This document shows, piece after piece, positions 51,814 to 64,000 of a stretch of 64,000 bases of DNA. This stretch comes from Rhodoligotrophos sp. CJ14 (GTDB lineage: Bacteria > Pseudomonadota > Alphaproteobacteria > Rhizobiales > Im1): contig NZ_CP133319.1 in the NCBI RefSeq assembly GCF_038811545.1, positions 682,001 to 746,000 on the forward strand. Direction: 5' to 3'. A program made the position numbers and the translations under genes. The notes beneath the pieces are model-generated. The model was not told the origin of the DNA, ran no database searches, and saw nothing but the letters and a program-made list of their open reading frames with translations. Within the stretch, counting starts at the first letter, position 1, and every line of letters begins with the position of its first letter.

Positions 51814-52434
51814 ATGCTGATGACGACCGACGCCCGCGAAGCTTTGATCCTCATCGATGAGCGCAATCGCCGCGTCGGCACGGCCGAAAAATACCCCGCC
51901 CATCACCAGGGCCTGTTGCATAGGGCGTTTTCGATTTTCCTCTTCGATGATCAGGGCCGGACGCTGCTGCAGCGGCGCGCTGCTGGCAAATATCACTCAG
52001 CCGGCAAATGGGCGAATAGCTGCTGCGGTCATCCCCGGCCGGGTGAATCAACGAGGCAGGCAGCCTCGCGCCGGATCTCCGAAGAGCTGAACATCACCGT
52101 TGACCTGACCTTCGGCTTTCATTCGCGTTACCGCGCAGAACTCGACCGCGGCATGATCGAGAACGAATTCGTCTATGTCTATGCCGGGCGCGTGCCTGAG
52201 GGCGAAATATCGCCCAATCGCGCCGAAGCGGACCGCATCATGCTGGTTTCGCTCGATGAGTTGAGCGATCAGGTTGCGCAATCCGATCAACGCTATGCCT
52301 TCTGGCTCCGGCATTATCTAAGACAGCACCGCGCCGAGCTGGATCGGATGGCGGCGGAAATGGTCAAGCTGTCTGCAGGTTCCGTCCCGCCGCGCCAGTT
52401 GCCCGATCAGGTGCCCGCAAGAAACCTGTCATAA
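51814..52434 (+). CDS. idi: Isopentenyl-diphosphate delta-isomerase, type I
   Basis: The 206-residue Nudix-fold isomerase has the catalytic cysteine in WANSCCGHPRPGE, RRISEELNI of the Nudix-like helix, and the catalytic glutamate region ENEFVYVYAG. It interconverts IPP and DMAPP in isoprenoid synthesis. CAGGGAGGACGCCAG precedes ATG 51814. The last 28 bp overlap the end of the convergent hydrolase gene. Confidence 0.95.
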   Translation: MLMTTDAREALILIDERNRRVGTAEKYPAHHQGLLHRAFSIFLFDDQGRTLLQRRAAGKYHSAGKWANSCCGHPRPGESTRQAASRRISEELNITVDLTFGFHSRYRAELDRGMIENEFVYVYAGRVPEGEISPNRAEADRIMLVSLDELSDQVAQSDQRYAFWLRHYLRQHRAELDRMAAEMVKLSAGSVPPRQLPDQVPARNLS

Positions 52435-54032
52435 GCCAGAAGCGTATCGCGCACAGCTGCCTCCGATTGACCGGGATACCACACGGTCGCCGGCAGGGCA
52501 GTGACAAGCGTGCCCTTCGGCGCGATCTCCTCGGCAAGCTTCAAGCCCTCGACCAGCATGTCCGCGGGTCCTGCGCAGATCATCGCAGGCCGCGTAAGCT
52601 TTGGAAGCCGCGCTTGCGTGTCATATTCAAAGGCGGCGCGATAGGAGCGGTCATAGGTGTGCCCGCTGGAGAGCAGCCCGACCGTCCAGTCATGCAGGAA
52701 TTGCGCATCCGGAACGCCCAGGCTGCGCGCGGCGGTGCGATCCTGCCGGTACCACGGCCAGAACAGAAACATGTCGCGGCGCATATTCCAGGCCTGCTGC
52801 AAATGCAGGCCCCACCGGTCCGGGGTGAGAGGCGGGAGATAGTTCTCGAGAATGTCGGAGGTGAAGTGCGGCGGCAGCAAGGGTGGTGCCTCCAGCACCA
52901 CCCTGCCGACCCGTTCCGGCGCGATCACCGCGAGTTCGAGCGCAACACACGCTCCCGTATGGGTGCCCCACAGGTCGAATCTGTCAAAGCCGAGCGCGTC
53001 GGCCAGCTCGAGCCCGTTGCGCGCCAGGGCCGCAATATCCGTCTTTGCGAGGGAAGGCTTGTCCGACCGCCCGTTCCCCAGAAAATCTGGAGCCACCACC
53101 GCGCGGCCAGAGCTCAAGCCGCGGATGATTTCGGCGAGTGGCGCGGATGAGCCCGGTGCGGACTGGAACATCAACAGAGGTCGTGGTCCATCGCCCGCCC
53201 GGCGCAGGTGCACCCGCCCCGAGGGCGTGTCCGCGTAATCGCACCAGATCTGCCCTTCAGCCTCCGGGCGCACCGCACTGCGCGTGAAGGCAATGGGAGC
53301 AGCCTTCACCCCGAGCTCTGCTAACCGCTTGTCGATCATCGCAGGCATCGAGGCATCTTCGAGCGAGACGGCCTGCGCTGCGCGATCGAAATCGTCCATT
53401 GCGGCAAGGCAGGCATTCCACAGCGCTTCATAGCGCTCGGGTGCGGCCGCTGCCGCGACGACCGTCTCATCCAGCACATTATCGGCGGGGAGAGATGCAC
53501 CGATCCGGGCAGGCTGCGAAGGATCATCCGCCTTGAGGATATGGCGGTCACGAATATGCGCCCATAGCGCCGTCAGGTGGGTGCCATCCGGGCGCGGCTT
53601 CAGCAAGGGCGCATGGCATCGGGCAGACGCCCAGCCTTTGGCAAGATCGAGATCGGCGGCGAAAACGGCTGCAGGTTTGGTCTGCAACCGATCACATAGC
53701 GCGATGGCCAGGGGCGCAGCGAGGTCGTAGGTGAGCAACGGCGCATCGCCAAGGCCAAGCGCCGTCCAGGCCTCGGCGATAACTGCTGCGGCGCTTTCCA
53801 GATCCCGAGCCGGTGCAAATTCCGACCCGCCAATGCCCGGCAGCTCGAAAACCACCATCGTGCGGTCGCTGAACTCGACCGCGCAGTCTTGCGCTCTCGG
53901 ACCCGCCCCGAGAATGAGCCCCGGCAGCACCACCAAAGGCGCCCCATTACCCCCGCTCCAATAGCGCAGCTGGCCTTGGGATGTCGCCACATAGGCCGGT
54001 TTTACCGGCACCTGTTGCAGAAAGCTGGTCAT
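52407..54032 (-). CDS. Tandem alpha/beta hydrolase homologue lacking canonical catalytic residues
   Basis: The 541-residue protein contains two alpha/beta hydrolase folds. The N-terminal one (residues 15-250) has TYDLAAPLA at the elbow, without serine. The C-terminal one (265-541) has HLRRAGDGPRPLLMFQSAPGS, APDFLGNGRSDKP and LWGTHTGACVAL, where His358 replaces the serine; the usual final His region reads WYPGQSEAA. Its ATG overlaps the livF stop, so it is the last gene of the transporter operon and probably acts on or binds the imported compound. It may be a non-standard hydrolase or a pseudo-enzyme. Confidence 0.8.
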   Translation of the reverse strand: MTSFLQQVPVKPAYVATSQGQLRYWSGGNGAPLVVLPGLILGAGPRAQDCAVEFSDRTMVVFELPGIGGSEFAPARDLESAAAVIAEAWTALGLGDAPLLTYDLAAPLAIALCDRLQTKPAAVFAADLDLAKGWASARCHAPLLKPRPDGTHLTALWAHIRDRHILKADDPSQPARIGASLPADNVLDETVVAAAAAPERYEALWNACLAAMDDFDRAAQAVSLEDASMPAMIDKRLAELGVKAAPIAFTRSAVRPEAEGQIWCDYADTPSGRVHLRRAGDGPRPLLMFQSAPGSSAPLAEIIRGLSSGRAVVAPDFLGNGRSDKPSLAKTDIAALARNGLELADALGFDRFDLWGTHTGACVALELAVIAPERVGRVVLEAPPLLPPHFTSDILENYLPPLTPDRWGLHLQQAWNMRRDMFLFWPWYRQDRTAARSLGVPDAQFLHDWTVGLLSSGHTYDRSYRAAFEYDTQARLPKLTRPAMICAGPADMLVEGLKLAEEIAPKGTLVTALPATVWYPGQSEAAVRDTLLAYDRFLAGT

Positions 54033-54748
54033 GTTCCGAGATAGGCGGCCTTCACCCGCGGATTGTTGAGCAAGGCATCCGCCTTGTCCTCGAGGACCAA
54101 ATTGCCGGTTTCGAGCACATAGCCGCGATCGGCAAGCCTCAGCGCGAGATCGACCCGCTGTTCGACCAGCAGGATGGTGAGGCCCGCCTCATGCAGGCTG
54201 CGGATCGCATCCGCGAGCTGATCGACCATGATGGGAGCAAGGCCCAGAGATGGCTCGTCCAGCATGAGGCAGCGAGGCTCCGCCATGAGGCCACGCGCGA
54301 TGGCGAGCATCTGCTGCTGTCCGCCGCTCAACGTGCCGCCCTTCTGGTCGCGCCGCTCCTTGAGGATCGGAAAGATCGAATAGATCCACTCAACCCTATC
54401 CGCGAAGCTGCGCGCCTCCTTGCGCCCTGCCCCGTTTGCCCGGATCGCACCGAGCTCGATATGCTCATAGACCGTCATATCGGCGAATAGCAGCCGCCCT
54501 TCCGGCACATGCACCACTCCATGGGCGATGATCTCGTGCGGCTGCATGGTATCGATGCGCTTGCCGTCGAACTCGATACGCCCGGCGACCGGCCGCAAGA
54601 GACCCGAGATCGTCTTGAGCGTCGTGGTCTTGCCCGCCCCGTTAGAGCCGACCAGCGTCACGATCTCCCTTTCGCCAACCGTCAGCGAGAGATCATGGAT
54701 GACCTCGCGCCGGCCATAGCGGACCTTCACCCCGTCAAGCTTAAGCAC
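54029..54748 (-). CDS. livF: Branched-chain-type ABC transporter ATP-binding protein LivF
   Basis: The 239-residue ATPase has Walker A GSNGAGKTTTLKTI, signature LSGGQQQMLAIARGL and Walker B LMLDEPSLGLAPI, and the short LivF-type C-terminus (LALRLADRGYVLETG). It overlaps livG by 8 bp. It powers uptake by the LivHM membrane pair. The Liv name marks the family; the substrate in this operon is unknown. Confidence 0.95.
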   Translation of the reverse strand: MLKLDGVKVRYGRREVIHDLSLTVGEREIVTLVGSNGAGKTTTLKTISGLLRPVAGRIEFDGKRIDTMQPHEIIAHGVVHVPEGRLLFADMTVYEHIELGAIRANGAGRKEARSFADRVEWIYSIFPILKERRDQKGGTLSGGQQQMLAIARGLMAEPRCLMLDEPSLGLAPIMVDQLADAIRSLHEAGLTILLVEQRVDLALRLADRGYVLETGNLVLEDKADALLNNPRVKAAYLGT

Positions 54749-55520
54749 TGACCTGCTCCCGACCGAGATAGACGCGGATCACATCCGGATTATCGGCGAC
54801 CTCGCGCGGTGGCCCCTCCGCGATCTTGACCCCGTGATCGATGACCACCACCCGATCGCACACGCCCATGACCACGCGCATATGATGCTCGACGATCAGC
54901 ACCGCGATGCCGCGGCCGCGGATCTCGCGGATCATCTCGACGAGCCTCTGTCCCTCCTCCGGGTTCATGCCGGCTGCTGGCTCATCCAGAAGCAGCAGCT
55001 TCGGTTCGGCCGCCAGCGCGATCGCGATCTCAAGCCGACGGTGCTCACCATAAGACAGCGTGTCGGCCGGAAGATCCGCGCGCCCGTCGAGCTGCACGGA
55101 TTTCAGGATCTCGTGAACCTTGTCCACGATCTCGGCCTCCTGCCGCCGATAGCCGGAGGTGTGGAACATGGCGGCAACCCAGCCCTTGTCCGTGGTGCGG
55201 AACGTGGCGGCGCGCACATTGTCGAAGGTCGACATGGCCGGGAAGATACTGGTGATCTGGAAGGTGCGGGTCATGCCGAGCCGCGCCATCCTATGGGCGG
55301 GATAGCCGGTGCAATCCTGACCAAGGAAGCGGACGCTGCCGCTGGTCGGAGGCATGGAGCCCGCGATACAGTTGAAGAGCGTGGTCTTGCCGGCGCCGTT
55401 GGGTCCGATCAGCCCGACGATCTCATTTTGGCCGACGCTCAGATCAACATTGCTGACCGCGGTGAGGCCGCCGAACTTGCGGGTGAGCCCGCGCACCTCG
55501 AGAATGGCTGGCGATGTCAT
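54741..55520 (-). CDS. livG: Branched-chain-type ABC transporter ATP-binding protein LivG
   Basis: The 259-residue ATPase has Walker A GPNGAGKTTLFNCI, signature LSYGEHRRLEIAIAL and Walker B LLLDEPAAGMNPEE, with the LivG-type end KIAEGPPREVADNPDVIRVYLG. It is coupled to livM by an ATGA overlap. Confidence 0.95.
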   Translation of the reverse strand: MTSPAILEVRGLTRKFGGLTAVSNVDLSVGQNEIVGLIGPNGAGKTTLFNCIAGSMPPTSGSVRFLGQDCTGYPAHRMARLGMTRTFQITSIFPAMSTFDNVRAATFRTTDKGWVAAMFHTSGYRRQEAEIVDKVHEILKSVQLDGRADLPADTLSYGEHRRLEIAIALAAEPKLLLLDEPAAGMNPEEGQRLVEMIREIRGRGIAVLIVEHHMRVVMGVCDRVVVIDHGVKIAEGPPREVADNPDVIRVYLGREQVSA

Positions 55521-56515
55521 TCCGCAACCTCCCGAACGGCGAGCGGCTGGGGAGTGGCGGTTGTCGCACCCTGCGCCCCCGGGCGCTCGAACAACCGCCG
55601 CCAGAGGCTCACAATCCCACCGGGCAAGAAAATGACCGAGGCAATGAGCAGCGCCGCGAAGATCACGAGCCGCATGGCACCCAGCGGCCGCAAGAGCTCG
55701 AGCAGCCCCACATAGATGAGCGCGCCCACAATGGGTCCGGCGATCGTGCCGCGCCCGCCAACGATCACCATGATGATGATCGCGGCCATATAGGAAAGGC
55801 CCATCATCTCCGGCGTGATCACCTTCACGTAATGGGCATAGAGTGCACCGCTCACCCCCGCAATGGCGGTCGCCACCACGAAGCCGAGCAGCTTCATGTG
55901 GAAGATATCGATGCCGAGCGAGGAGGCGAGCTGCGGGTTCTCGCGGGTCGCGATGAAGGCGCGCCCCGTACGGCTATGCACGAGGGCATAGAGCACATAG
56001 GCGAAGAGCACCACGCAGGCGAGCGCCACGTAATAGAATGAGCGCGCATCATCGAAGGTGAGCCAGCCACTGCCGAAACTGAGCGGTGGGATATTGGAGA
56101 TGCCCATCGGCCCGCGCGTCACGTCCACCCAGTAATTGGTGATGGTGTAGAGGATCGAGCCGAAGCCTAAGGTGAGGATCGCAAATTGCGGACCCACGAT
56201 GCGCAGCGCCACATAGCCGATCACCAGCCCGAAGAGGCCGGCGATAACCCCCGCCGCGATGAGCCCCATAAGGCCGGGAAGCCCCATATCCATGCCGAGA
56301 ATGGCCGCGGCATAGGCCCCTATGCCGAAAAAGGCCGCATGCCCGAACGTCAGCTCGCCGAGATAGCCGATGATGATGTTGAGGCTGAGCGCCAGGAGCG
56401 CATAGAGCATCCACAGCACCAGCAGATGATGCACATAGGTGCTACCCGTCAGCAGGGGGAGCACCGCCAGCACGATGACCGCAATGAGGGAAGCCAGCTT
56501 GTTGTTCATGTTCAA
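55517..56515 (-). CDS. livM: Branched-chain-type ABC transporter permease LivM
   Basis: The 332-residue membrane protein has about nine hydrophobic helices and the LivM core ALSLNIIIGYLGELTFGHAAFFGIGAY and MSYMAAIIIMVIVGGRGTIAGPIVGA-like segment (LSYMAAIIIMVIVGGRG). It overlaps livG and livH by ATGA. It is the translocation partner of LivH. Confidence 0.95.
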   Translation of the reverse strand: MNMNNKLASLIAVIVLAVLPLLTGSTYVHHLLVLWMLYALLALSLNIIIGYLGELTFGHAAFFGIGAYAAAILGMDMGLPGLMGLIAAGVIAGLFGLVIGYVALRIVGPQFAILTLGFGSILYTITNYWVDVTRGPMGISNIPPLSFGSGWLTFDDARSFYYVALACVVLFAYVLYALVHSRTGRAFIATRENPQLASSLGIDIFHMKLLGFVVATAIAGVSGALYAHYVKVITPEMMGLSYMAAIIIMVIVGGRGTIAGPIVGALIYVGLLELLRPLGAMRLVIFAALLIASVIFLPGGIVSLWRRLFERPGAQGATTATPQPLAVREVAE

Positions 56516-57387
56516 GCCCTTCGTGCCGCACCGAACAGGCCTTGCGGGCGCCAGAGCAGGACGGCGATGATGATCGCGTAGCCGATCGCCTCCGCAAAGC
56601 CGAGCGAGACATAGCCGCCGCCAAGCGCCTCGATGACCCCGAGCAGCAACCCGCCGACCAAGGCGCCGGGAATGCTGCCAAGCCCGCCCATGATCACCAC
56701 GATGAAGCCCTTGAGCACCGCCCAGCTGCCAACGGTCGGGAAGATCATCGCGGTCGGTCCCACCAGCGCGCCGGCAAGGGCCGCAAGACCACCGGCCAGC
56801 GCGAACGTATAGGCATGCACCCGGCGGATATTGATGCCGGTCAGGGCGGCCCCTTCCGGGTTCTGAGCCGTGGCCCGCATCATCTTGCCGATGGTCGAGG
56901 TCTTGATGAAGAAATAGAGCGCCACCAGCACCGCCACGCCGACCAGGAAGATGACCACGCGCTGCTGTGTCACGATGAGGTCACCCATCTCGACGACCTC
57001 GTCCGAGAACGGACTGCTCACATATTTCGGATCAGCCCCGAACAGAACCTCACCGCCATTGGTCAAAAGCAGCGCGAGCCCGAGGCTGCATAGGAGGATC
57101 GTGAACTCATGCTCCCGGCGCAGCGGCCAGAAGAACAGCGAGTTGGCGAGGATTCCGAAACCGGCCACCACCACGGTGGCAATGACGGTGGCGGAGATAT
57201 AGTCCAGCCCCAGCAGGGTCATCGCGTAATAGGTGAAGAAGGCGCCCAGCATGTAAAACTCGCCATGGGCGAAATTCACGATCCTGAGGACGCCGAAGAT
57301 CAGGGTGAGGCCGGTCGCGATCAGCACATAGGTCATGCCATTGACCAGGCCATTCACGATCTGCTGGGTAAAGACAGCGAATTCCAT
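56512..57387 (-). CDS. livH: Branched-chain-type ABC transporter permease LivH
   Basis: With ATG 57387 the permease is 291 residues and begins MEFAVFTQQIVNGLVNGMTYVLIATGLTLIFG, the usual LivH start; a longer in-frame version is not preferred. The family block GGLGSIPGALVGGLLLGVIEALGG is near the C-terminus. Its gap to livK is 73 bp. Confidence 0.95.
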   Translation of the reverse strand: MEFAVFTQQIVNGLVNGMTYVLIATGLTLIFGVLRIVNFAHGEFYMLGAFFTYYAMTLLGLDYISATVIATVVVAGFGILANSLFFWPLRREHEFTILLCSLGLALLLTNGGEVLFGADPKYVSSPFSDEVVEMGDLIVTQQRVVIFLVGVAVLVALYFFIKTSTIGKMMRATAQNPEGAALTGINIRRVHAYTFALAGGLAALAGALVGPTAMIFPTVGSWAVLKGFIVVIMGGLGSIPGALVGGLLLGVIEALGGGYVSLGFAEAIGYAIIIAVLLWRPQGLFGAARRA

Positions 57388-57460
57388 AGATTTACTCGCA
57401 AAAGCGGTCGGGAGGCTGCGCGATGGCAGCCTCACCTCGGGTAAGATCGGACCGCAGGCG

Positions 57461-58594
57461 CTAGTTCTTGACGGTGGTGATCTTGCCGTCGACCACCCGG
57501 ATCAGATAGGTGGTCTGCAGAGCCTGCCCCTTGTCATCGAACCGCATATTGCCGAGCAGCGTATCCCAAGGATGCGCCTTGAGCGCGGCGGCGATCTTGT
57601 CATAGGCACGGGGGTCGCCCGCTTCCTGAATGGCCGCGGCGAGGAGCTCGACCGCCTGCGCACCGAGCGAGCCGATGAAGGCGGGCTCGTTGGAGAACAT
57701 GCTCTTATATTTTTCAACCCATGCCTTCAGCATGGGATTGTCGCTATCGGGCGCAAACAGCGAGGCGGAATAGACGCCCTCCAACGCGGGACCCGACAGC
57801 TCCACCAGCTTGGGGTTCATATTGCCGGCGGACGCGATGATCGTGCCCTTATAGCCGGTCTGCTTGATCTGCCGGTAGATGGTCGCGCCCTGCGAAGTGT
57901 TGATGGCCGACACATAGATCGCATCGGGCTTCAGGCTGCGCAGCTTGGTCAGCGCCGTCGTGAAATCCGTATCACTGCGGTTGTAATACTCGTTGCCGAG
58001 CGTCTTGATCCCGCATTCGCCGAGGAGCTTCTCGTAATTCTGTGCTTCGAGCCGCCCGTAATCATCATTGATGGTGATGAAGGCGATGGTCTTGAGCCCC
58101 ATCTTGTCGCATATGAACTTGGAATAGGTCGCCGAGTTCATCGTCGAGGTGGCATTCAGCCGGAACAGATATTTGTGTCCCTCCTCCGTCACCTTCGGAT
58201 GCTGGGACGAGGTCATCACGGTGATGATCTTATCGCGCGTCTCTTCCTTGAGGCTCAGGGCGACCGCGCTGAACCAGCCGCCAACCAGCACATCCACATT
58301 GTCCTGCTCGATGGCGCGCTTGGCGGCGCTCACCCCTTCCTCAGGCGTTCCCTTGTCGTCGTATTTGACGATCTCGATCTTGCGCCCATCGAGAATACCG
58401 CCTTTGTCATTGATGACGGCGGCCATCGCTTCCATGCCTTCCGCGGCGAGCTGGCCGTCAAAGGCGCCGGCCCCGCTCAACGGCAGCAGCGCGCCGATCC
58501 GCACCGGCGGCTTCTCCTGAGCATGCGCGCCGGCAAACAGGCTGCCGGCCATGAGCACCGCCGTGGCGGCCGTAAAAAATCGACGAGTAAACAT
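57461..58594 (-). CDS. ABC transporter substrate-binding protein (LivK / Peripla_BP_6 family)
   Basis: The 377-residue periplasmic protein has a signal peptide (MFTRRFFTAATAVLMAGSLFAGAHA) and a type I binding fold: PVRIGALLPLSGAGAFDGQLAAEGMEAM, IEIVKYDDKGTPEEGVSAAKRAIEQDNVDVLVGG, and later IYRQIKQTGYKGTIIAS. The start ATG 58594 follows GGGGAGGAATGGC. It fixes the substrate specificity of the LivFGHM transporter. Related binders take amino acids, aromatic acids, amides or short organic acids, so the ligand is open. Confidence 0.92.
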   Translation of the reverse strand: MFTRRFFTAATAVLMAGSLFAGAHAQEKPPVRIGALLPLSGAGAFDGQLAAEGMEAMAAVINDKGGILDGRKIEIVKYDDKGTPEEGVSAAKRAIEQDNVDVLVGGWFSAVALSLKEETRDKIITVMTSSQHPKVTEEGHKYLFRLNATSTMNSATYSKFICDKMGLKTIAFITINDDYGRLEAQNYEKLLGECGIKTLGNEYYNRSDTDFTTALTKLRSLKPDAIYVSAINTSQGATIYRQIKQTGYKGTIIASAGNMNPKLVELSGPALEGVYSASLFAPDSDNPMLKAWVEKYKSMFSNEPAFIGSLGAQAVELLAAAIQEAGDPRAYDKIAAALKAHPWDTLLGNMRFDDKGQALQTTYLIRVVDGKITTVKN

Positions 58595-58632
58595 GCCATT
58601 CCTCCCCAATCGCTTCGTCTCTGCGCTTGCCC

Positions 58633-59493
58633 TCAGCTTGCGCGCAGATATTTGAGCTGCAACTCCTCGACCTGCTTGAAGCCGATGAACTCGATGAAGT
58701 CATTATGATCGGTACGCGGCCGCGGCAGATCCTTGCTGGTTTTGGTCTTGGCGAGCACGCTCAGGTTCTCGCGCAGCGCCTCGGCGGCCGTCATGAGCGG
58801 CACCAAGGCAAAGGTTGCCATGCCTGCAACCTCCTCCACCTCCTCCGGGCTCAAGCCTTCGAGCCAGCCGAGCAGCTGCAAAGACAAGGGCACGCCGACC
58901 GCCTGGCGCATAGCGCGCAGGCCCTCGATCGACTTGAAGCACTTGCTGATCGGCTGGATGACGTCCGCGCCGGCCGCCACATAGGCCTTGCCGCGCTCCA
59001 TCGCCTCCTGCTCGTCCACCACATCGGTGCGCGCGATAATCAGCATGTTGGGATCGCGCCGGGCGGCAACCGCGGCCGAGATCTTGGCCACCGCCTCGTC
59101 CTTCTGGATCACCTCGACGCCGCCCACGCAAATGGGACAGCGCTTGGGCGCCACCTGATCTTCGAGAATGACCGCCGAGACGCCCGCCGCCTCGAACTCG
59201 CGCACGGTGCGCATCACATTGATCGCATTGCCATAGCCCGTGTCGATATCGGCGATGACCGGCACATTGACCACATTGATGACATTGCGGACCACCGTCA
59301 GATTTTCTGACATGGTATAGAGCTCGGCATCCGGCAGGCCGAGATGGGAGGCGGAGACCCCGAAGCCCGAGGTCATGACCGCATCAAACCCCGCCTGCTC
59401 GATGAGCTTGGCTGAGAGCGCGTCGTAAGCCCCCGCCGCCCACACGGTCTTCTGTGCCAGAACGCGATCGCGATACTCGCTGCTTCTCGCCAT
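58633..59493 (-). CDS. Isocitrate lyase / PEP mutase superfamily lyase
   Basis: The 286-residue TIM barrel has GAYDALSAKLIEQAGFDAVMTSGFGVSAS at the N-terminus, the Mg-site ADIDTGYGN (Asp82, Asp84) and the lid segment EDQVAPKRCPICVGG. The lid keeps the catalytic-type Cys119 but has PI where isocitrate, methylisocitrate and related lyases have GH, so substrate recognition probably differs. It lies 5 bp after the aconitase-like small subunit gene. Together they suggest hydration then C-C cleavage of a substituted malate, as in 2,3-dimethylmalate lyase pathways. Oxaloacetase or PEP-phosphonomutase-like chemistry is less likely. Confidence 0.88.
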   Translation of the reverse strand: MARSSEYRDRVLAQKTVWAAGAYDALSAKLIEQAGFDAVMTSGFGVSASHLGLPDAELYTMSENLTVVRNVINVVNVPVIADIDTGYGNAINVMRTVREFEAAGVSAVILEDQVAPKRCPICVGGVEVIQKDEAVAKISAAVAARRDPNMLIIARTDVVDEQEAMERGKAYVAAGADVIQPISKCFKSIEGLRAMRQAVGVPLSLQLLGWLEGLSPEEVEEVAGMATFALVPLMTAAEALRENLSVLAKTKTSKDLPRPRTDHNDFIEFIGFKQVEELQLKYLRAS

Positions 59494-59498
59494 GTCAG

Positions 59499-60026
59499 TT
59501 ATCCCTTGAAATCGCCCTGTCTGGGCGTCGTTTGCTTGAGGTAGGGAACGAGGCCGCCGGCCATGAGCATCTGTTCATCGGCGGCCGAAAGGGGCTCGAA
59601 GGGCAAAGATGTGCCCTTGGTGAGATTGCGCACGAGGCCCGCCTGCCAGTCGACCTCGACCTCGTCCCAGCGCTCGACGAGCTTGAGAATGCCGGGGCAG
59701 CTCACCTGGGGAAAGCCCATGCTGATCTCCCCGCGCCAATATCCGGGCGAGAAGCTTTCAGCGATCACGCCCGCAATGCCGTGATGGCGCATCGCGCGCA
59801 TTGGCGGGTAATGGGGATGCCCATAGCCGAAATTATGGGCCCCGACGAGCAGATCGCCCGGCTTCACCTTGGAAGCGAAATCCGGATCATATGAGCTCAT
59901 GGCGACCGCCGCGAGCTCGTTGATGTCGGTGATCTTGATATTCTTGACGCCGACGATCTGATCGACGTCGAAATCTTCTTCCTCGAAGATAAAGGCGACG
60001 CGCCCATGCAGATTATTGAGCGGCAT
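59499..60026 (-). CDS. Aconitase-family swivel subunit (LeuD-like) with altered active-site loop
   Basis: With ATG 60026 (GAGGCCAGCC before it) the protein has 175 residues, typical of LeuD-like small subunits. VKPGDLLVGAHNFGYGHPHYPPMRAMRHHGIAGVIAESF corresponds to the GxNFGxGSSREHAP block, but the SSREH residues, which act on and bind substrate in aconitases, are replaced by HPHYP (residues 70-74). It should pair with the large subunit encoded 8 bp upstream. Hence the pair is probably not a 3-isopropylmalate dehydratase; dimethylmaleate-type or another hydratase is possible. Confidence 0.85.
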   Translation of the reverse strand: MPLNNLHGRVAFIFEEEDFDVDQIVGVKNIKITDINELAAVAMSSYDPDFASKVKPGDLLVGAHNFGYGHPHYPPMRAMRHHGIAGVIAESFSPGYWRGEISMGFPQVSCPGILKLVERWDEVEVDWQAGLVRNLTKGTSLPFEPLSAADEQMLMAGGLVPYLKQTTPRQGDFKG

Positions 60027-60034
60027 GGCTGGCC

Positions 60035-61291
60035 TCACAGATATTTGCGGGGATCGGCAATCTGCCCCTCGATCGCCGTGGCAGCGACGGTTGCTGCATT
60101 GCAGAGATAGATTTCCGAGTCGGGGCTCCCCATGCGGCCGCGAACATTGAGCGTGCCGGTCGAGACCGCGCGCTGCTTCTCCGTCATGGTGGCGATGCGC
60201 CCGAAGCAGTAATCACAGCTGGGCGAGGAGACAAAGGCTCCCGCCTCCGCAAGGGTCGAGATCAGCCCTTCGCGACCCGCCGCGGCCATGATCTCCTGGC
60301 TCGTCGGGATCACATTGAGCTGGAAGCCCTCCTTCACCTGCCGGCCTTTGAGGATCTGGGCGGCAATCCTGAGATCCTCGAGACGGCCCGAGGCGCAAGA
60401 GCCGAGATAGCCCGCATTGATTTCGAGGCCCAGATAGTCCGAGAGATTGCGGGTGTTCGAGGGGGTCGGTGGAATCACCACCACCGGCTCGAGCCCGGTA
60501 AGATCGATATCGTAGACGGCGGAATAATCCGCATCCGGATCGCTCTGCACCGGCTCGAGTGTCTTGCGCGCCCGCTTCAGCGCATAATCCAGCCGCTCAC
60601 CCTCCGGATTGACGATCGCGGTAATGGCGCCGGTAAACATGGCAAGCCCAGTGATGGTCTGCAGCCCTTCCGTTGACAGCGATGCCAGCGCCGGGCCGCC
60701 GACCTCCAGCACCTGGAAGCGGCAGGAGGCAGGTCCCATCACCCGCACAAGGTGATGGAACACATCGCGCGCCATCACGCCGGGCGTGAGCTTGCCTCTG
60801 AGATTGACCCGCACCGTGTGCGGAACCTTGATCGATACCCGCTCGCGCACGAAGGCTTCGAGCACATTCCGCCGCATGCCGATCGCCAGCGTGCCGAAGG
60901 TGCCGAGCTGGCTGATATGCCCGTCGAAATGCACGACGAAGGCGCCGGGAACCGCATAGCCCACTTCTGCCGCAACTTGGTGACCGATCCCGCGCCGTTC
61001 GAATAGCGGCACGTTGTTCTCCTTGCACCAGGTGCGTGTGCCAATATGCAGCTCCTCCTCTTTGGGGGTCGTCGCCGGCACCATATGGTCGATGAAGATG
61101 GCGAAGCGCTCGGGCTCGGCCACGCGCTCGATGCCGAAATCCTCCTTCATCGTCTTGAAATAGACATCAGTATAGCCAGGGAAATCATAGGCCAGGACGA
61201 AATCCGGCTTGGCCATGAGTTCATCCCCCGCCTTCGCTGAGGGCACCCCTGCCGCACGCGCCAGGATCTTTTCTGTGATGGTGAAGCCCAT
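60035..61291 (-). CDS. Aconitase-family large subunit (LeuC-like hydratase)
   Basis: The 418-residue protein keeps the three [4Fe-4S] cysteines: Cys299 in YLGSCASGRLEDL, and Cys359 and Cys362 in SPSCDYCFGR. Other family blocks are TITEKILARAAG, HFDGHISQLGTFGTLAIG and STGTLNVRGRMGSPDSEIYL. The start ATG 61291 follows AGGAGAGAGTGACG. The true biosynthetic leuC is expected elsewhere; here the context is catabolic (ABC importer, ICL-type lyase, FAD oxidase). The expected reaction is reversible hydration or dehydration of a 2-hydroxy diacid. Confidence 0.9.
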   Translation of the reverse strand: MGFTITEKILARAAGVPSAKAGDELMAKPDFVLAYDFPGYTDVYFKTMKEDFGIERVAEPERFAIFIDHMVPATTPKEEELHIGTRTWCKENNVPLFERRGIGHQVAAEVGYAVPGAFVVHFDGHISQLGTFGTLAIGMRRNVLEAFVRERVSIKVPHTVRVNLRGKLTPGVMARDVFHHLVRVMGPASCRFQVLEVGGPALASLSTEGLQTITGLAMFTGAITAIVNPEGERLDYALKRARKTLEPVQSDPDADYSAVYDIDLTGLEPVVVIPPTPSNTRNLSDYLGLEINAGYLGSCASGRLEDLRIAAQILKGRQVKEGFQLNVIPTSQEIMAAAGREGLISTLAEAGAFVSSPSCDYCFGRIATMTEKQRAVSTGTLNVRGRMGSPDSEIYLCNAATVAATAIEGQIADPRKYL

Positions 61292-61303
61292 CGTCACTCT
61301 CTC

Positions 61304-62902
61304 CTAATGCCGGCCAAGCCCGAGCGAGCCCGGGTTCATGAGGCCGTGCGGGTCGACCGCCTGCTTGACCGCCTCGAGCAGCGACCAGGTCTCGGGCTTG
61401 AGCAGCTCCTTGAAGGGATAGTCCCGCGCGACCTGCCAGCTCACACCGCCCAATCGCGCATAGAGCTCCTGCGTGCCCCGGCGCAGCTCCGCCACCGCGT
61501 CCCGTGCCGCCACATTCGCCGGCCGGTCCCGCCAGGGCCTCACCACGTCATCGCCAAGGCTCTTGGCATGGAGCGGCGTGATCTCGTCCATCCAGTAAAA
61601 GGCAGGCTCGAGGAAGAACTCATTGCCAACCGTCATGGTCATGACGGAATAGACGATGCCGTGCTGCTCCATGAAATCGCGGCGGCTTGCGAAATAGTCG
61701 TCATTCGCCCGCACAACCTCCTGGGCGGTGCTCAACGGGAAGACCGCGTGGATCGGCACCCAGCGCTGCCCATCAAGCCCGAGCATGCCGCGGGTCGGAC
61801 CGAAAGGTTTCGAGCGCATGACCTTAGGGACAGTATTCTCGATCTCGGTGCCATAGCGCTGCCCGATCGCGCGGATCCGGCTCATGGACTCGGCAAGCTC
61901 CTGGGGCGTGCGCGCCTCCAGCACCAAGTGAAGTGTATAATTGTGCGCCTTGAGGAAAGCGGTGCCACCGGCTGCGACGCTGACCGCATCCTTGAGCCCG
62001 CTCAGCATGGATTTGCCGCCCTTGACCACATTGCCGAGGGTCTTCACACCATCCATGAGTTTATTGACGCTCGCCGAATGCTCGGCCTTGGTCCGATCGA
62101 TGCCGAACCCCTCGGAGATGGCGCGGGTGCGAGCCATCTCCACCTGGGCAGCCGCCATCTTTGCGATGCTCTCGAAGCCGAACGAGAGAAAGCCGACTTC
62201 CGCTGGCTTCACATTGAGCCGCAAGGTGGCGGCAAGCTTGACGCCCATGGCGCCATTATCGCCGAGGAACAGGCCGGTGAGATCAGGGCCACCTTCGCGG
62301 GTGAAGGGTTTGGCGCCCTTGCGGCCGCCGGAACCGGTGGTGACGATACGGCCATCGGCGAGCGCCACCGTCACCCCGATCACGCTTTCCGCAACCGTTG
62401 CATTGTTGGTCGATCCGAAGAAGGCGCTGTTCTGTGACAGCGCCCCACCCACCGTCGCGTTGATGCCGGAGAGCGGGCCCCAATAGGCGGTGCGCAAGCC
62501 CGTTCCATCGAGCGCTTCGTTGAGCTTGGCCCAGGTGCAGCCGGCCTCGACGGTCACATACATGTCATCCGCATTGACCTCGATCACCTTGTTCAGCCGC
62601 CGAAGATCGATCACGAGCGAATCCGGACGCGCCGGAAGATAGCCCTTGGTGTAGGACATGCCCCCGCCGCGCGGCACGATCGCAATGCCTGCGGCAATGG
62701 CCCTGCCCACCATCTGCGCCGTCATCTCGGCGCTGTCCGGCAGCAGCACCGCGAGCGGCGGGATACCCGGCTGCCAGAAGATGTCATTGGCGTAATAGGT
62801 GCGGGTTGCATCATCCGCGAGCACCGCATCGGACCCGAAATCCGCAATCAGGCGCTCAACGAGGGGATGGTTTGCGGCGCTGAGATTTTCAGCGAGTGAC
62901 AT
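61304..62902 (-). CDS. FAD-linked oxidase of the VAO/PCMH (GlcD-like) family
   Basis: With ATG 62902 (GAGGGAGGCTTTTGCCT before it) the protein is 532 residues. The FAD domain shows IVPRGGGMSYTKGYLPARPDSLVIDLRRL, VEAGCTWAKLNEAL and GPLSGINATVGGALSQNSAFFGSTNNATV. The cap and C-terminal domain end in LLEAVKQAVDPHGLMNPGSLGLG, typical of this family. It would oxidise a hydroxy-acid or alcohol. It lies between the MBL hydrolase and the hydratase genes in the operon, so it probably acts early in the route. Confidence 0.9.
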   Translation of the reverse strand: MSLAENLSAANHPLVERLIADFGSDAVLADDATRTYYANDIFWQPGIPPLAVLLPDSAEMTAQMVGRAIAAGIAIVPRGGGMSYTKGYLPARPDSLVIDLRRLNKVIEVNADDMYVTVEAGCTWAKLNEALDGTGLRTAYWGPLSGINATVGGALSQNSAFFGSTNNATVAESVIGVTVALADGRIVTTGSGGRKGAKPFTREGGPDLTGLFLGDNGAMGVKLAATLRLNVKPAEVGFLSFGFESIAKMAAAQVEMARTRAISEGFGIDRTKAEHSASVNKLMDGVKTLGNVVKGGKSMLSGLKDAVSVAAGGTAFLKAHNYTLHLVLEARTPQELAESMSRIRAIGQRYGTEIENTVPKVMRSKPFGPTRGMLGLDGQRWVPIHAVFPLSTAQEVVRANDDYFASRRDFMEQHGIVYSVMTMTVGNEFFLEPAFYWMDEITPLHAKSLGDDVVRPWRDRPANVAARDAVAELRRGTQELYARLGGVSWQVARDYPFKELLKPETWSLLEAVKQAVDPHGLMNPGSLGLGRH

Positions 62903-62917
62903 AGGCAAAAGCCTCCC

Positions 62918-63814
62918 TCAATTCGTCCAGGTGATCGGCTCGAAACGGTATCCGCCGCGCGTATTTGCAACGCGTCCCGCATGCGGCGCCCCGAAATGCT
63001 GAGGGAAGATCACGGCATTGGCCTCGGCGGCCAGGCCAAGCAGCGCCTTGCGCGTTGATGGCGCGCGCTCATTGTCCTCGCAGAACCGGGTATTGAGCTC
63101 GGGACAGACGATCTGCATGGGCTGGTGCAGCACGTCGGCGGTGAAGAGGCCCACTGCGCCATCGCACTCAAGGCGAATATTGAGCTGCCCGTCGGTGTGA
63201 CCGGGCGCATGGGTGAACGTCAAAACATCAAGCAGGCGGTCGCCCGGCTCAACCAGATCCACGAGCCCCGCCTCGACCACCGGTCGCACGCTGTCCTCGA
63301 TGACTTCGCCGCCTTCGGGCTGGGCGCGCAGGCTGCGGCCGTCTTTGGTCCAATTGGCGTATTCGCGCGCGCCAAAGACATAGCGGGCCCGCGGGAAGGT
63401 GGGCACCCAGGCGCCATCGACCAGGGCAGTGTTCCAGCCCACATGATCCACGTGCAAGTGCGTGTTGATCACATAGGTCACATCCTCAGGGCGCACGCCT
63501 GCGGCCGCCAGCCGGTCGAGAAACGGCAGATCGAGCATGTGAAAGCGCTGAAAGGCCTTCGCCGAGCGATGCTTGTGATTGCCGCAGCCCGTATCGATCA
63601 GCACCACATCATCGCCGATGCGCAGCAGCCAGCTATGCATGCTGGACATCACCTTGCCCGTCTCGGCGTGGAAGAAGTTCGGGTTGCGCAGCTCGGGGAA
63701 TTCATCGAGCAGCGCCGCGCTGAAGCCTGGAAACAGGAAGGCGGGATCAAATCCCGGGGTCAGCATCTCCTCGATGCGTGCGACCTCCACACCGCCGATC
63801 CGCGTGCTGGCCAC
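62918..63814 (-). CDS. MBL-fold metallo-hydrolase (lactonase-like)
   Basis: The 298-residue metallo-beta-lactamase-fold protein has the dinuclear zinc motif NTHLHVDHVGWN, an early DTGCGNHKH, THAPGHTDGQLNI for a further ligand, and a late IFPQHFGAPHAG. It belongs to the group with AHL lactonase-like and related hydrolases. It is the first gene of the operon and starts about 125 bp from a palindrome in the divergent region. Opening of a lactone or thioester in the same pathway is plausible. Confidence 0.9.
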   Translation of the reverse strand: MASTRIGGVEVARIEEMLTPGFDPAFLFPGFSAALLDEFPELRNPNFFHAETGKVMSSMHSWLLRIGDDVVLIDTGCGNHKHRSAKAFQRFHMLDLPFLDRLAAAGVRPEDVTYVINTHLHVDHVGWNTALVDGAWVPTFPRARYVFGAREYANWTKDGRSLRAQPEGGEVIEDSVRPVVEAGLVDLVEPGDRLLDVLTFTHAPGHTDGQLNIRLECDGAVGLFTADVLHQPMQIVCPELNTRFCEDNERAPSTRKALLGLAAEANAVIFPQHFGAPHAGRVANTRGGYRFEPITWTN

Positions 63815-63937
63815 CTCGTTTCCTCCACATGTTCTTCTTGCCCGCAGACAATCACAGCCCGTAAAGTCGTGTCAACTGACAAAATAGATTTCATATAATG
63901 AAATGGTGAATTGAACAGCCTGGGTTTGCGCCGCTCC

Positions 63938-63953
63938 GGTGTATTGATACACC
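63938..63953. promoter_or_regulatory. Perfect palindrome in divergent promoter region, candidate GntR-type operator
   Basis: GGTGTAT-TG-ATACACC has 7-bp arms and a 2-bp centre. It resembles GT-N-TA / TA-N-AC operators of FadR-type GntR regulators. It lies between the 11-gene operon and a start codon at the right edge. Confidence 0.5.
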
Positions 63954-63994
63954 AGCCGCTTTTGAAACGGATCGACCGATCGCGAGGAGTAACC

Positions 63995-64000
63995 GTGACA
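63995..64000 (+). CDS. Start of a gene leaving the window
   Basis: GTG at 63995 follows CGCGAGGAGTAACC, a strong ribosome site with good spacing. Only two codons are visible. Its divergent position makes a regulator of the neighbouring operon a reasonable guess. Confidence 0.35.

Follow-up and report, generated by a model that had tools for sequence, protein, structure and literature searches.

The subject of this study is a cluster of genes in a window of 64,000 nucleotides from Rhodoligotrophos sp. CJ14 (contig NZ_CP133319.1, 4.81 Mb, bases 682001-746000), where a program-made list of open reading frames (ORFs) places exactly eleven ORFs between positions 52407 and 63814, all on the minus strand. 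A preliminary description of this window had proposed that they form a single tightly spaced uptake-and-degradation operon with a hydratase and a lyase of the isocitrate lyase (ICL)/phosphoenolpyruvate (PEP) mutase superfamily as its core. The present analysis supports that proposal, and Pfam and NCBIfam matches agree with the gene families named at that stage, the last gene excepted. The features, from the 5′ end of the unit, are as follows.

63815-64000 (on to 64063 in the genome), minus strand: divergent promoter/operator region, with a conserved hexamer and an inverted repeat
62918-63814, minus strand: first gene, metallo-β-lactamase (MBL)-fold metallohydrolase, lactonase-like (PF00753, 89.5 bits)
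61304-62908, minus strand: flavin adenine dinucleotide (FAD)-dependent oxidase/dehydrogenase (family match to FAD_binding_4)
60035-61297, minus strand: AcoL, predicted large subunit of a remodelled aconitase-type iron–sulfur (Fe-S) hydro-lyase (PF00330)
59499-60038, minus strand: AcoS, its predicted small (swivel) subunit, with a GHPH loop replacing GSSRE (NCBIfam LeuD/DmdB-like; no Pfam match at E 0.001)
58633-59493, minus strand: lyase of the ICL/PEP-mutase superfamily, Cys kept, with KxCP or KxCA in place of KRCGH (PF13714, 154 bits)
57461-58609, minus strand: periplasmic binding protein of a Liv-type importer (Peripla_BP_6)
56512-57435, minus strand: Liv-type permease 1 (PF02653)
55517-56515, minus strand: Liv-type permease 2 (PF02653)
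54741-55520, minus strand: ATP-binding cassette (ABC) ATPase, LivG-like (NF008449, 273.2 bits, under its cut-off of 362)
54029-54748, minus strand: ABC ATPase, LivF-like (NF008626, 264 bits, under its cut-off of 441)
52407-54032, minus strand: last gene, α/β-hydrolase-fold protein, probably of two domains, with a degenerate triad (fold matches and residue alignment)

The intervals between these genes, computed from the ORF list, are 9, 6, -4, 5, 23, 25, -4, -4, -8 and -4 nt from 5′ to 3′, a range of -8 to +25 nt; the two longest are 80 and 73 nt if other start codons are used. At its 3′ end (52407-52434) the unit overlaps by 28 nt a convergent gene (51814-52434) that looks, by eye, like one for an isopentenyl-diphosphate isomerase. 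AcoL, AcoS and the lyase are referred to below as the core.

The neighborhood of these genes was compared across 100 loci, consisting of those found in a scan with the lyase as the query (137 relatives, of which the best 80 were kept, from named and metagenome-assembled genomes), plasmid records, and further genome stretches, with gene maps drawn by a purpose-written codon-usage gene caller. Because most loci were fetched with the lyase query, the presence of the lyase is biased, except in 12 loci obtained with the small subunit. The eleven gene types are found together in 21 of the 100 loci, our own included; the first ten genes are contiguous in each of these 21, and in 13 the full set of eleven runs without interruption, with order and strand unchanged, a repetition that argues against a chance arrangement. 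In the Azospirillum loci the last gene lies on the opposite side of the regulator; Azospirillum lipoferum 4B carries its cluster on plasmid AZO_p2. The core is more widespread than the full operon. Eighty-three loci have a small subunit that carries GHPH and, being defined by that motif, are here called core loci; AcoL is found in all of them and the lyase in 82 (that of L088 lies outside the fetched stretch), with the three genes contiguous in 79. They are also contiguous in every one of the 12 loci for which the small subunit alone served as the query, two of which look like copies of other loci in the set, and the whole set is not fully de-replicated, L115 and L117 resembling copies of L040 and L028. 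Core loci were found in Pseudomonadota, in Bacillota, and on a plasmid of Rhodococcus opacus (L087); the core pair of hydratase and lyase recurs in soil and marine bacteria. Genome searches with the small subunit (E 1e-30) were positive in 10 of 101 relatives, our own genome included and two of the ten being of the same genus, and in 4 of 398 genomes of a phylum sample, again with our own, low rates that point to a patchy distribution. The pairwise distances of the three core proteins agree (r 0.82-0.93, values inflated by shared ancestry). Two genomes, of Neobacillus (L135) and Tistrella (L136), hold an additional core copy accompanied by Liv-type transporter genes, over and above copies with TRAP (tripartite ATP-independent periplasmic) or Opp transporters. 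Locus L088, on a Polaromonas plasmid, has several IS6 transposases and two large-subunit copies, both of which match as two separate pieces.

Comparison of the loci also bears on how the genes may be expressed. A gene whose product contains IclR domains (L084:14064-14813, L084 being our own locus) diverges from the unit at the edge of the window; its most likely start is at 64064, and a longer ORF reads from 63911. The region between the two genes contains TTGACA at 63870-63875 and the inverted repeat ATTTCAT-ATA-ATGAAAT at 63888-63904. The hexamer lies 19-167 nt ahead of the called MBL start in 23 of the 25 loci where the IclR and MBL genes diverge and is preceded by a partly conserved element of the type TCA-n-TGA(A/C)A, of which the inverted repeat is the version in our genome. 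It is absent from the other two, L083 and L089, and from five loci in which the IclR gene faces AcoL. From this pattern and the spacing, the eleven genes are likely to be one operon with a single promoter ahead of the first gene. The IclR gene is directly followed in our genome by a haloacid-dehalogenase-like gene (L084:14818-15555), one member of whose cluster also lies near the core in L017.

Automatic annotation, for example in one relative, names parts of the operon after leucine biosynthesis and amino-acid uptake, and these database names of single parts favor a view in which the genes are neighbors with separate roles: an amino-acid transporter, a quorum-quenching lactonase, and duplicates of the leucine pathway. 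We regard this as very improbable, given the contiguity of ten genes in 21 loci and of eleven in 13, the one conserved promoter-like site, the further aconitase-family genes present elsewhere in the genome, and a binding-protein site unlike that of amino-acid binders, which is described below.

The most distinctive component of the core is its hydratase. AcoL resembles an ordinary member of the aconitase superfamily in its large-subunit homology and its three cluster cysteines (Cys301, Cys361, and Cys364, present in 87 of 87 scorable rows), and it keeps D70/H71, H106, D125/H127, and R388; the three cysteines and the acid-base His and Asp residues are kept in nearly all rows of both the subfamily and the other sequences. 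The equivalents of Ser642, the base in the GSSRE loop, of Asn446-Arg447, and of Ser166 are missing. The numbering is that of aconitase, and the Arg447, Arg644, and Ser166 equivalents bind the vicinal carboxylate in ordinary members. In AcoS, which aligns without gaps to 3vba at this point, the loop reads GHPH, its two His being residues 74 and 76. Among the 73 small subunits of a first set, G(Y/F)GHPH is found in all 66 with at least 46% identity and a canonical-type loop in all seven with 36% or less. In the larger alignment His-Pro-His occupies the loop in 86 of 86 rows of a set picked by that motif, and the other rows have Ser, Ser, and Arg there in 16, 15, and 16 of 16. The former count is partly so by construction; independent evidence comes from the split by identity, from a score gap, and from the residues of AcoL, which played no part in the choice of the set (2 of 89 rows were not scorable). 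In AcoL, Ser is replaced by Gly (G126) in 87 of 87 rows, Asn by Thr (T382) in 86, and Arg by Leu (L383) in 87, the original residues being present in 18 of 18, 17 of 18, and 18 of 18 other rows; in addition, the Thr-Asn that follows the first cluster Cys has become Ala-Ser in 84 of 87. The score gap was seen in 299 genomes of the phylum of Neobacillus (L063), where only the source of L063 gave 238-261 bits and the best other match gave 122 bits; all nine loci examined among the lower-scoring matches carry canonical GSSRE. This gap indicates a discrete group. Thus, judged from sequence, AcoL-AcoS is a discrete subfamily of the aconitase family that appears to do without the Ser base and part of the usual pocket. 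PMC8184944 names Ser642 as the general base of aconitase and describes 20 active-site residues as fully conserved in every aconitase but aconitase X.

Two known systems are closest to this hydratase. With LeuCD (4nqy, 4kp1, 3vba), AcoL-AcoS shares the two-subunit architecture, alignment over the full length, the cluster cysteines, and the acid-base His and Asp residues; it differs in GHPH for GSSRE, FDGH for the GDSHT-type motif, GTLNV for SNRNF, and AS for TN after the first Cys, and in a context that is catabolic rather than one of leucine synthesis. The scores lie below the LeuCD equivalog cut-offs (TIGR02083, 287 versus 610.65 bits; TIGR02084, 87.4 versus 245.85), and indeed both subunits and the lyase fall under every NCBIfam cut-off against which they were listed. 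The second system is aconitase X, whose members include cis-3-hydroxyproline dehydratase and mevalonate-5-phosphate dehydratase and which, in the parts of PMC8184944 and PMC5144071 concerned, offers a precedent for a divergent branch in which gene context helped to find the substrate. Its own catalytic base is proposed to be a Ser (PMC8184944), and its cluster is held by different ligands, whereas AcoL-AcoS keeps the canonical ligands and has lost that Ser. In Pfam at E 0.001, only PF00330 matched AcoL and nothing matched AcoS, so that no AcnX domain was detected.

The lyase shows a parallel combination of retained and altered features. It has the PEP_mutase domain, the acidic metal-binding residues, and the Cys expected of the ICL/PEP mutase superfamily, with D82, D84, E111, and C119 invariant (n = 25). 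KRCGH is the loop motif of the methylisocitrate lyase PrpB; the Cys is present in 83 of 83 sequences from core loci and the GH in none of them, whereas 13 of 19 lyases outside the core set have the GH and 4 of the 19 also have KxCP. The score is far under the PrpB cut-off of NCBIfam (184.3 versus 354.4 bits), and in a profile search methylisocitrate lyases (best 1.3e-56) came ahead of the solved “dimethylmalate lyase” 3fa3 (E 9e-46). In the methylcitrate cycle (PrpD/AcnD/AcnB with PrpB), an isomerization is followed by a Cys lyase of the ICL superfamily that splits the hydroxy acid into pyruvate and a carboxylate. The core resembles that order of steps, but its lyase is not PrpB-like in score or loop and the operon contains no gene of citrate-synthase type.

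The preliminary description had likened the pair to the dimethylmaleate hydratase (DmdAB) and 2,3-dimethylmalate lyase step, and the two do share a common logic, in which an aconitase-type hydratase would hand over to an ICL-superfamily lyase. As logic the analogy appears reasonable, and in that sense the earlier interpretation is partly supported; as a claim of membership it is not supported, the proteins forming a distinct subfamily under the NCBIfam cut-offs. The rival that follows from it is an ordinary alkyl-maleate hydratase with a lyase of dimethylmalate or methylmalate type, in which His-Pro-His does the same vicinal dicarboxylate chemistry to give pyruvate or glyoxylate plus propionate or acetate. 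Full-length homology to the isopropylmalate/citramalate isomerase 4nqy (E 7.7e-75), the homology of the lyase to methylisocitrate and dimethylmalate lyases, and the recurrence near the core of TctC, TRAP, and major facilitator superfamily (MFS) importers, which are often carboxylate carriers, all speak for it. We nevertheless judge it rather unlikely, because the Arg447, Arg644, and Ser166 equivalents are replaced in all scorable rows of the subfamily and the lyase lacks KRCGH, and ordinary alkyl-malate enzymes need neither change. Dimethylmaleate itself was not adopted as the substrate, given the lost pocket residues, and is retained as part of this rival; a substituted maleate is possible. 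The comparison with DmdAB is one of profile scores. Three loci, L071, L072, and L074, have aconitase-type genes with canonical loops, a KRCGH lyase, and common neighbors, and may be true dimethylmalate-type clusters.

If the core is a unit, it need not be tied to a single mode of uptake, and across the loci it is accompanied by at least seven types of importer (Liv, TRAP, TctC, Opp, NitT/Ssu, and MFS among them). These counts, and those of the accessory genes below, record presence anywhere in the fetched stretch and not adjacency (in L118, for example, the Opp genes lie away from the core). The Liv binding protein of the type seen in the window occurs in 28 of the 83 core loci and a related type in three more; a second Liv type occurs in 11, TRAP in 16, TctC in 10, and Opp and NitT/Ssu in 6 each. 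Opp genes flank the core directly in L041, L052, and L058, as do TctC genes in L034 and L121-L123, while an MFS transporter gene adjoins it in L087 and an additional TRAP membrane gene follows it in L063-L065. The minimal form, in L121-L123, consists of the IclR gene, the core, and a TctC binding protein. That the core can stand with so little suggests that it is probably a complete degradative unit, enough to reach central metabolism, and its occurrence beside several unrelated importers points to an undescribed metabolic route. Beyond the core in L121 lie GGDEF/EAL, pilin-like, and class-V aminotransferase genes, the first two of which had been suspected of encoding a molybdenum hydroxylase. 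The binding protein of the window has Ala at a position that is Asp or Glu in four of the five solved chains aligned with it, two of which come from the same protein. An acidic residue at this position has a role in amino-acid binders, and its replacement makes an amino-acid ligand unlikely. For one of the TRAP binding proteins, the relatives gave no verifiable ligand.

The core is also found next to an importer protein in loci that lack the MBL and FAD enzymes and the product of the last gene, which places these three outside the core route; the MBL and FAD enzymes are instead an upstream extension of it. Among the 83 core loci, 35 have the MBL gene, 29 the FAD gene, and 25 the last gene, and the FAD gene never occurs without the MBL gene. 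In a FastTree phylogeny of the core from 80 of the 83 loci (all but L115, L117, and L088), the FAD-bearing loci all fall inside one clade with support of 0.995, which also holds L018, L019, and L020, in whose stretches the MBL gene is present and the FAD gene is not; L037, L044, and L049 carry the MBL gene elsewhere in the tree. The dinuclear metal ligands of an MBL lactonase (HxHxDH, H, D, H) are complete, and the residues H119, H121, D123, H124, H206, D227, and H273 are conserved in 93% or more of 35 relatives; the best NCBIfam match, to the AidB lactonase, reaches 73.1 bits against a cut-off of 360. The closest solved relative of the FAD enzyme is the D-lactate dehydrogenase 8jdc (E 2.7e-23). 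Together, the complete metal site and weak NCBIfam resemblances to lactonases and lactone oxidases suggest a feed through a lactol and a lactone in the clade of the window, and a lactone feeding the core is possible.

The last gene had been described as a tandem hydrolase homolog. Its C-terminal half does match the α/β-hydrolase fold (Pfam, structure alignment, and a fold search with a model of predicted local distance difference test (pLDDT) 87.7), but the two halves show no significant mutual sequence similarity (E 0.26), and only predicted secondary structure suggests a second hydrolase-fold domain. His358 occupies the position of the nucleophile Ser, which was located by alignment with Est1 (8v16), in each of the 22 relatives; Trp518 lies, by eye, near the usual place of the catalytic His, beyond the end of the Est1 alignment. 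The fold search returned general hydrolase-fold matches, with fluoroacetate dehalogenase at ∼20% identity first among the matches listed (50 of 1853). The protein is thus probably not a hydrolase.

Accessory genes outside the operon raise a further alternative, in which the core ends a route for a nitrogen ring or cyclic imide: HyuA/B, an amidase, and Rieske, TauD, or U540 proteins would open the ring to give an acid resembling maleamate or maleate, with the MBL and FAD enzymes as a parallel feed. HyuA is present in 9 of the 83 core loci, two HyuB-type clusters in 4 each, TauD in 4, Rieske proteins in 4, and U540 in 10, and amidase-like proteins can be recognized by eye in some. None of these genes belongs to the operon, and each occurs in at most 10 core loci, far fewer than the MBL, FAD, and last genes, which makes this route improbable in our view. 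U540 is our name for a very conserved protein of ∼540 residues (L051:10885-12504 and nine other loci) that lies near TRAP-type cores in nine loci and also in L043. It had no Pfam match and no meaningful sequence match in NCBIfam or the PDB; by eye, not confirmed, it looks M29/NicX-like, and its AlphaFold model was unusable (pLDDT 40.7, from 10 rows). A thiolase-like gene of one cluster lies near the core in L022, L057, and L087, across two phyla, and is accompanied in L022 by a ChsH2-type partner with an oligonucleotide/oligosaccharide-binding fold, whose cluster is also represented in L057.

Taken together, these observations lead us to favor, with somewhat better than even confidence, a catabolic operon controlled by IclR from a single promoter, in which an importer, the AcoL-AcoS hydratase, and the lyase would handle a small organic acid. 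The reactions and the regulation that we infer are the following. The ABC importer would take up a small organic acid that is not an α-amino acid, or a cyclic precursor of one. AcoL-AcoS, whose retained cluster ligands and acid-base residues speak for Fe-S-dependent hydration or dehydration, would add, remove, or move a hydroxyl group; the invariant His-Pro-His loop would take over what a Ser alkoxide and Arg do elsewhere. The lyase, whose kept Cys and acidic residues argue for C-C cleavage to a 2-oxo acid, would then use Mg and its Cys to cleave the 2-hydroxy acid so formed, and both products, a carboxylate and a 2-oxo acid of the type of pyruvate or glyoxylate, would be central metabolites. 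In the clade of the window, two or three extra enzymes would be added upstream: the FAD enzyme probably oxidizes a hydroxyl or lactol to a lactone, the MBL enzyme may open the lactone and so feed the core, and the hydrolase-fold protein probably has a nonhydrolytic role.

Several results weigh against this interpretation. Transporter genes separate the aconitase-type subunits from the lyase in L085 and L086, the order of the core genes differs in L087, and no lyase was recovered in the stretch of L088. Of a TctC importer, L121-L123 have just the binding protein beside the core, and the accessory genes differ between clades, with no clue to the substrate common to all loci. A general sigma-70 scan of the genome did not report the conserved TTGACA site. 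The MBL and FAD scores are far under named-function cut-offs, and the small subunit misses the LeuD/DmdB cut-off by only 1.35 bits (107.6 versus 108.95), which also favors the alkyl-maleate rival. Moreover, the loss of Ser and Arg could mean that ordinary hydratase chemistry has been lost altogether.

A more specific form of the favored operon model is one that we advance tentatively, at somewhat less than even confidence. Besides aconitase X, AcoL-AcoS may be a second divergent branch of the aconitases, with standard Fe-S ligands, a His-Pro-His loop, and a substrate without vicinal carboxylates (for example an amide, a lactone-derived acid, or a hydroxymethyl acid); this branch and its dedicated Cys lyase would form an undescribed, importer-independent module of soil and marine bacteria, fed in the clade of the window with a lactol or lactone, hydroxybutenolide-like, by the FAD and MBL enzymes. 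Among named compounds, itatartarate and 2-hydroxyparaconate were not adopted, since that route, in the part of PMC9875883 that treats it, uses a 127-residue lactonase and coenzyme A enzymes unlike these genes; its authors speculate there about an aconitase-like hydratase for itatartarate, and itatartarate therefore stays a candidate. The butenolide D-ring of strigolactones was set aside, as no bacterial route was seen in the literature searched. Neighboring genes did not identify glyoxylate as the product: thiamine diphosphate enzymes near L085 and L083 miss the glyoxylate carboligase cut-off, and a flavin mononucleotide dehydrogenase near L085 misses the lactate dehydrogenase cut-offs listed.

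In the open-access literature searched, neither this gene set, for which the preliminary description had known of no pathway, nor the His-Pro-His variant was found described. Collectively, the sequence comparisons argue that the core is a real, conserved catabolic module and that its hydratase adds a new variant to the aconitase family. Ordinary aconitases have been treated as invariant in their Ser base and Arg/Asn pocket, and this clade has exchanged both while keeping the cluster; it thereby makes the role of the Ser directly testable and may carry a new reaction. Furthermore, the same three genes, beside at least seven types of importer, mark a compound that many bacteria meet.

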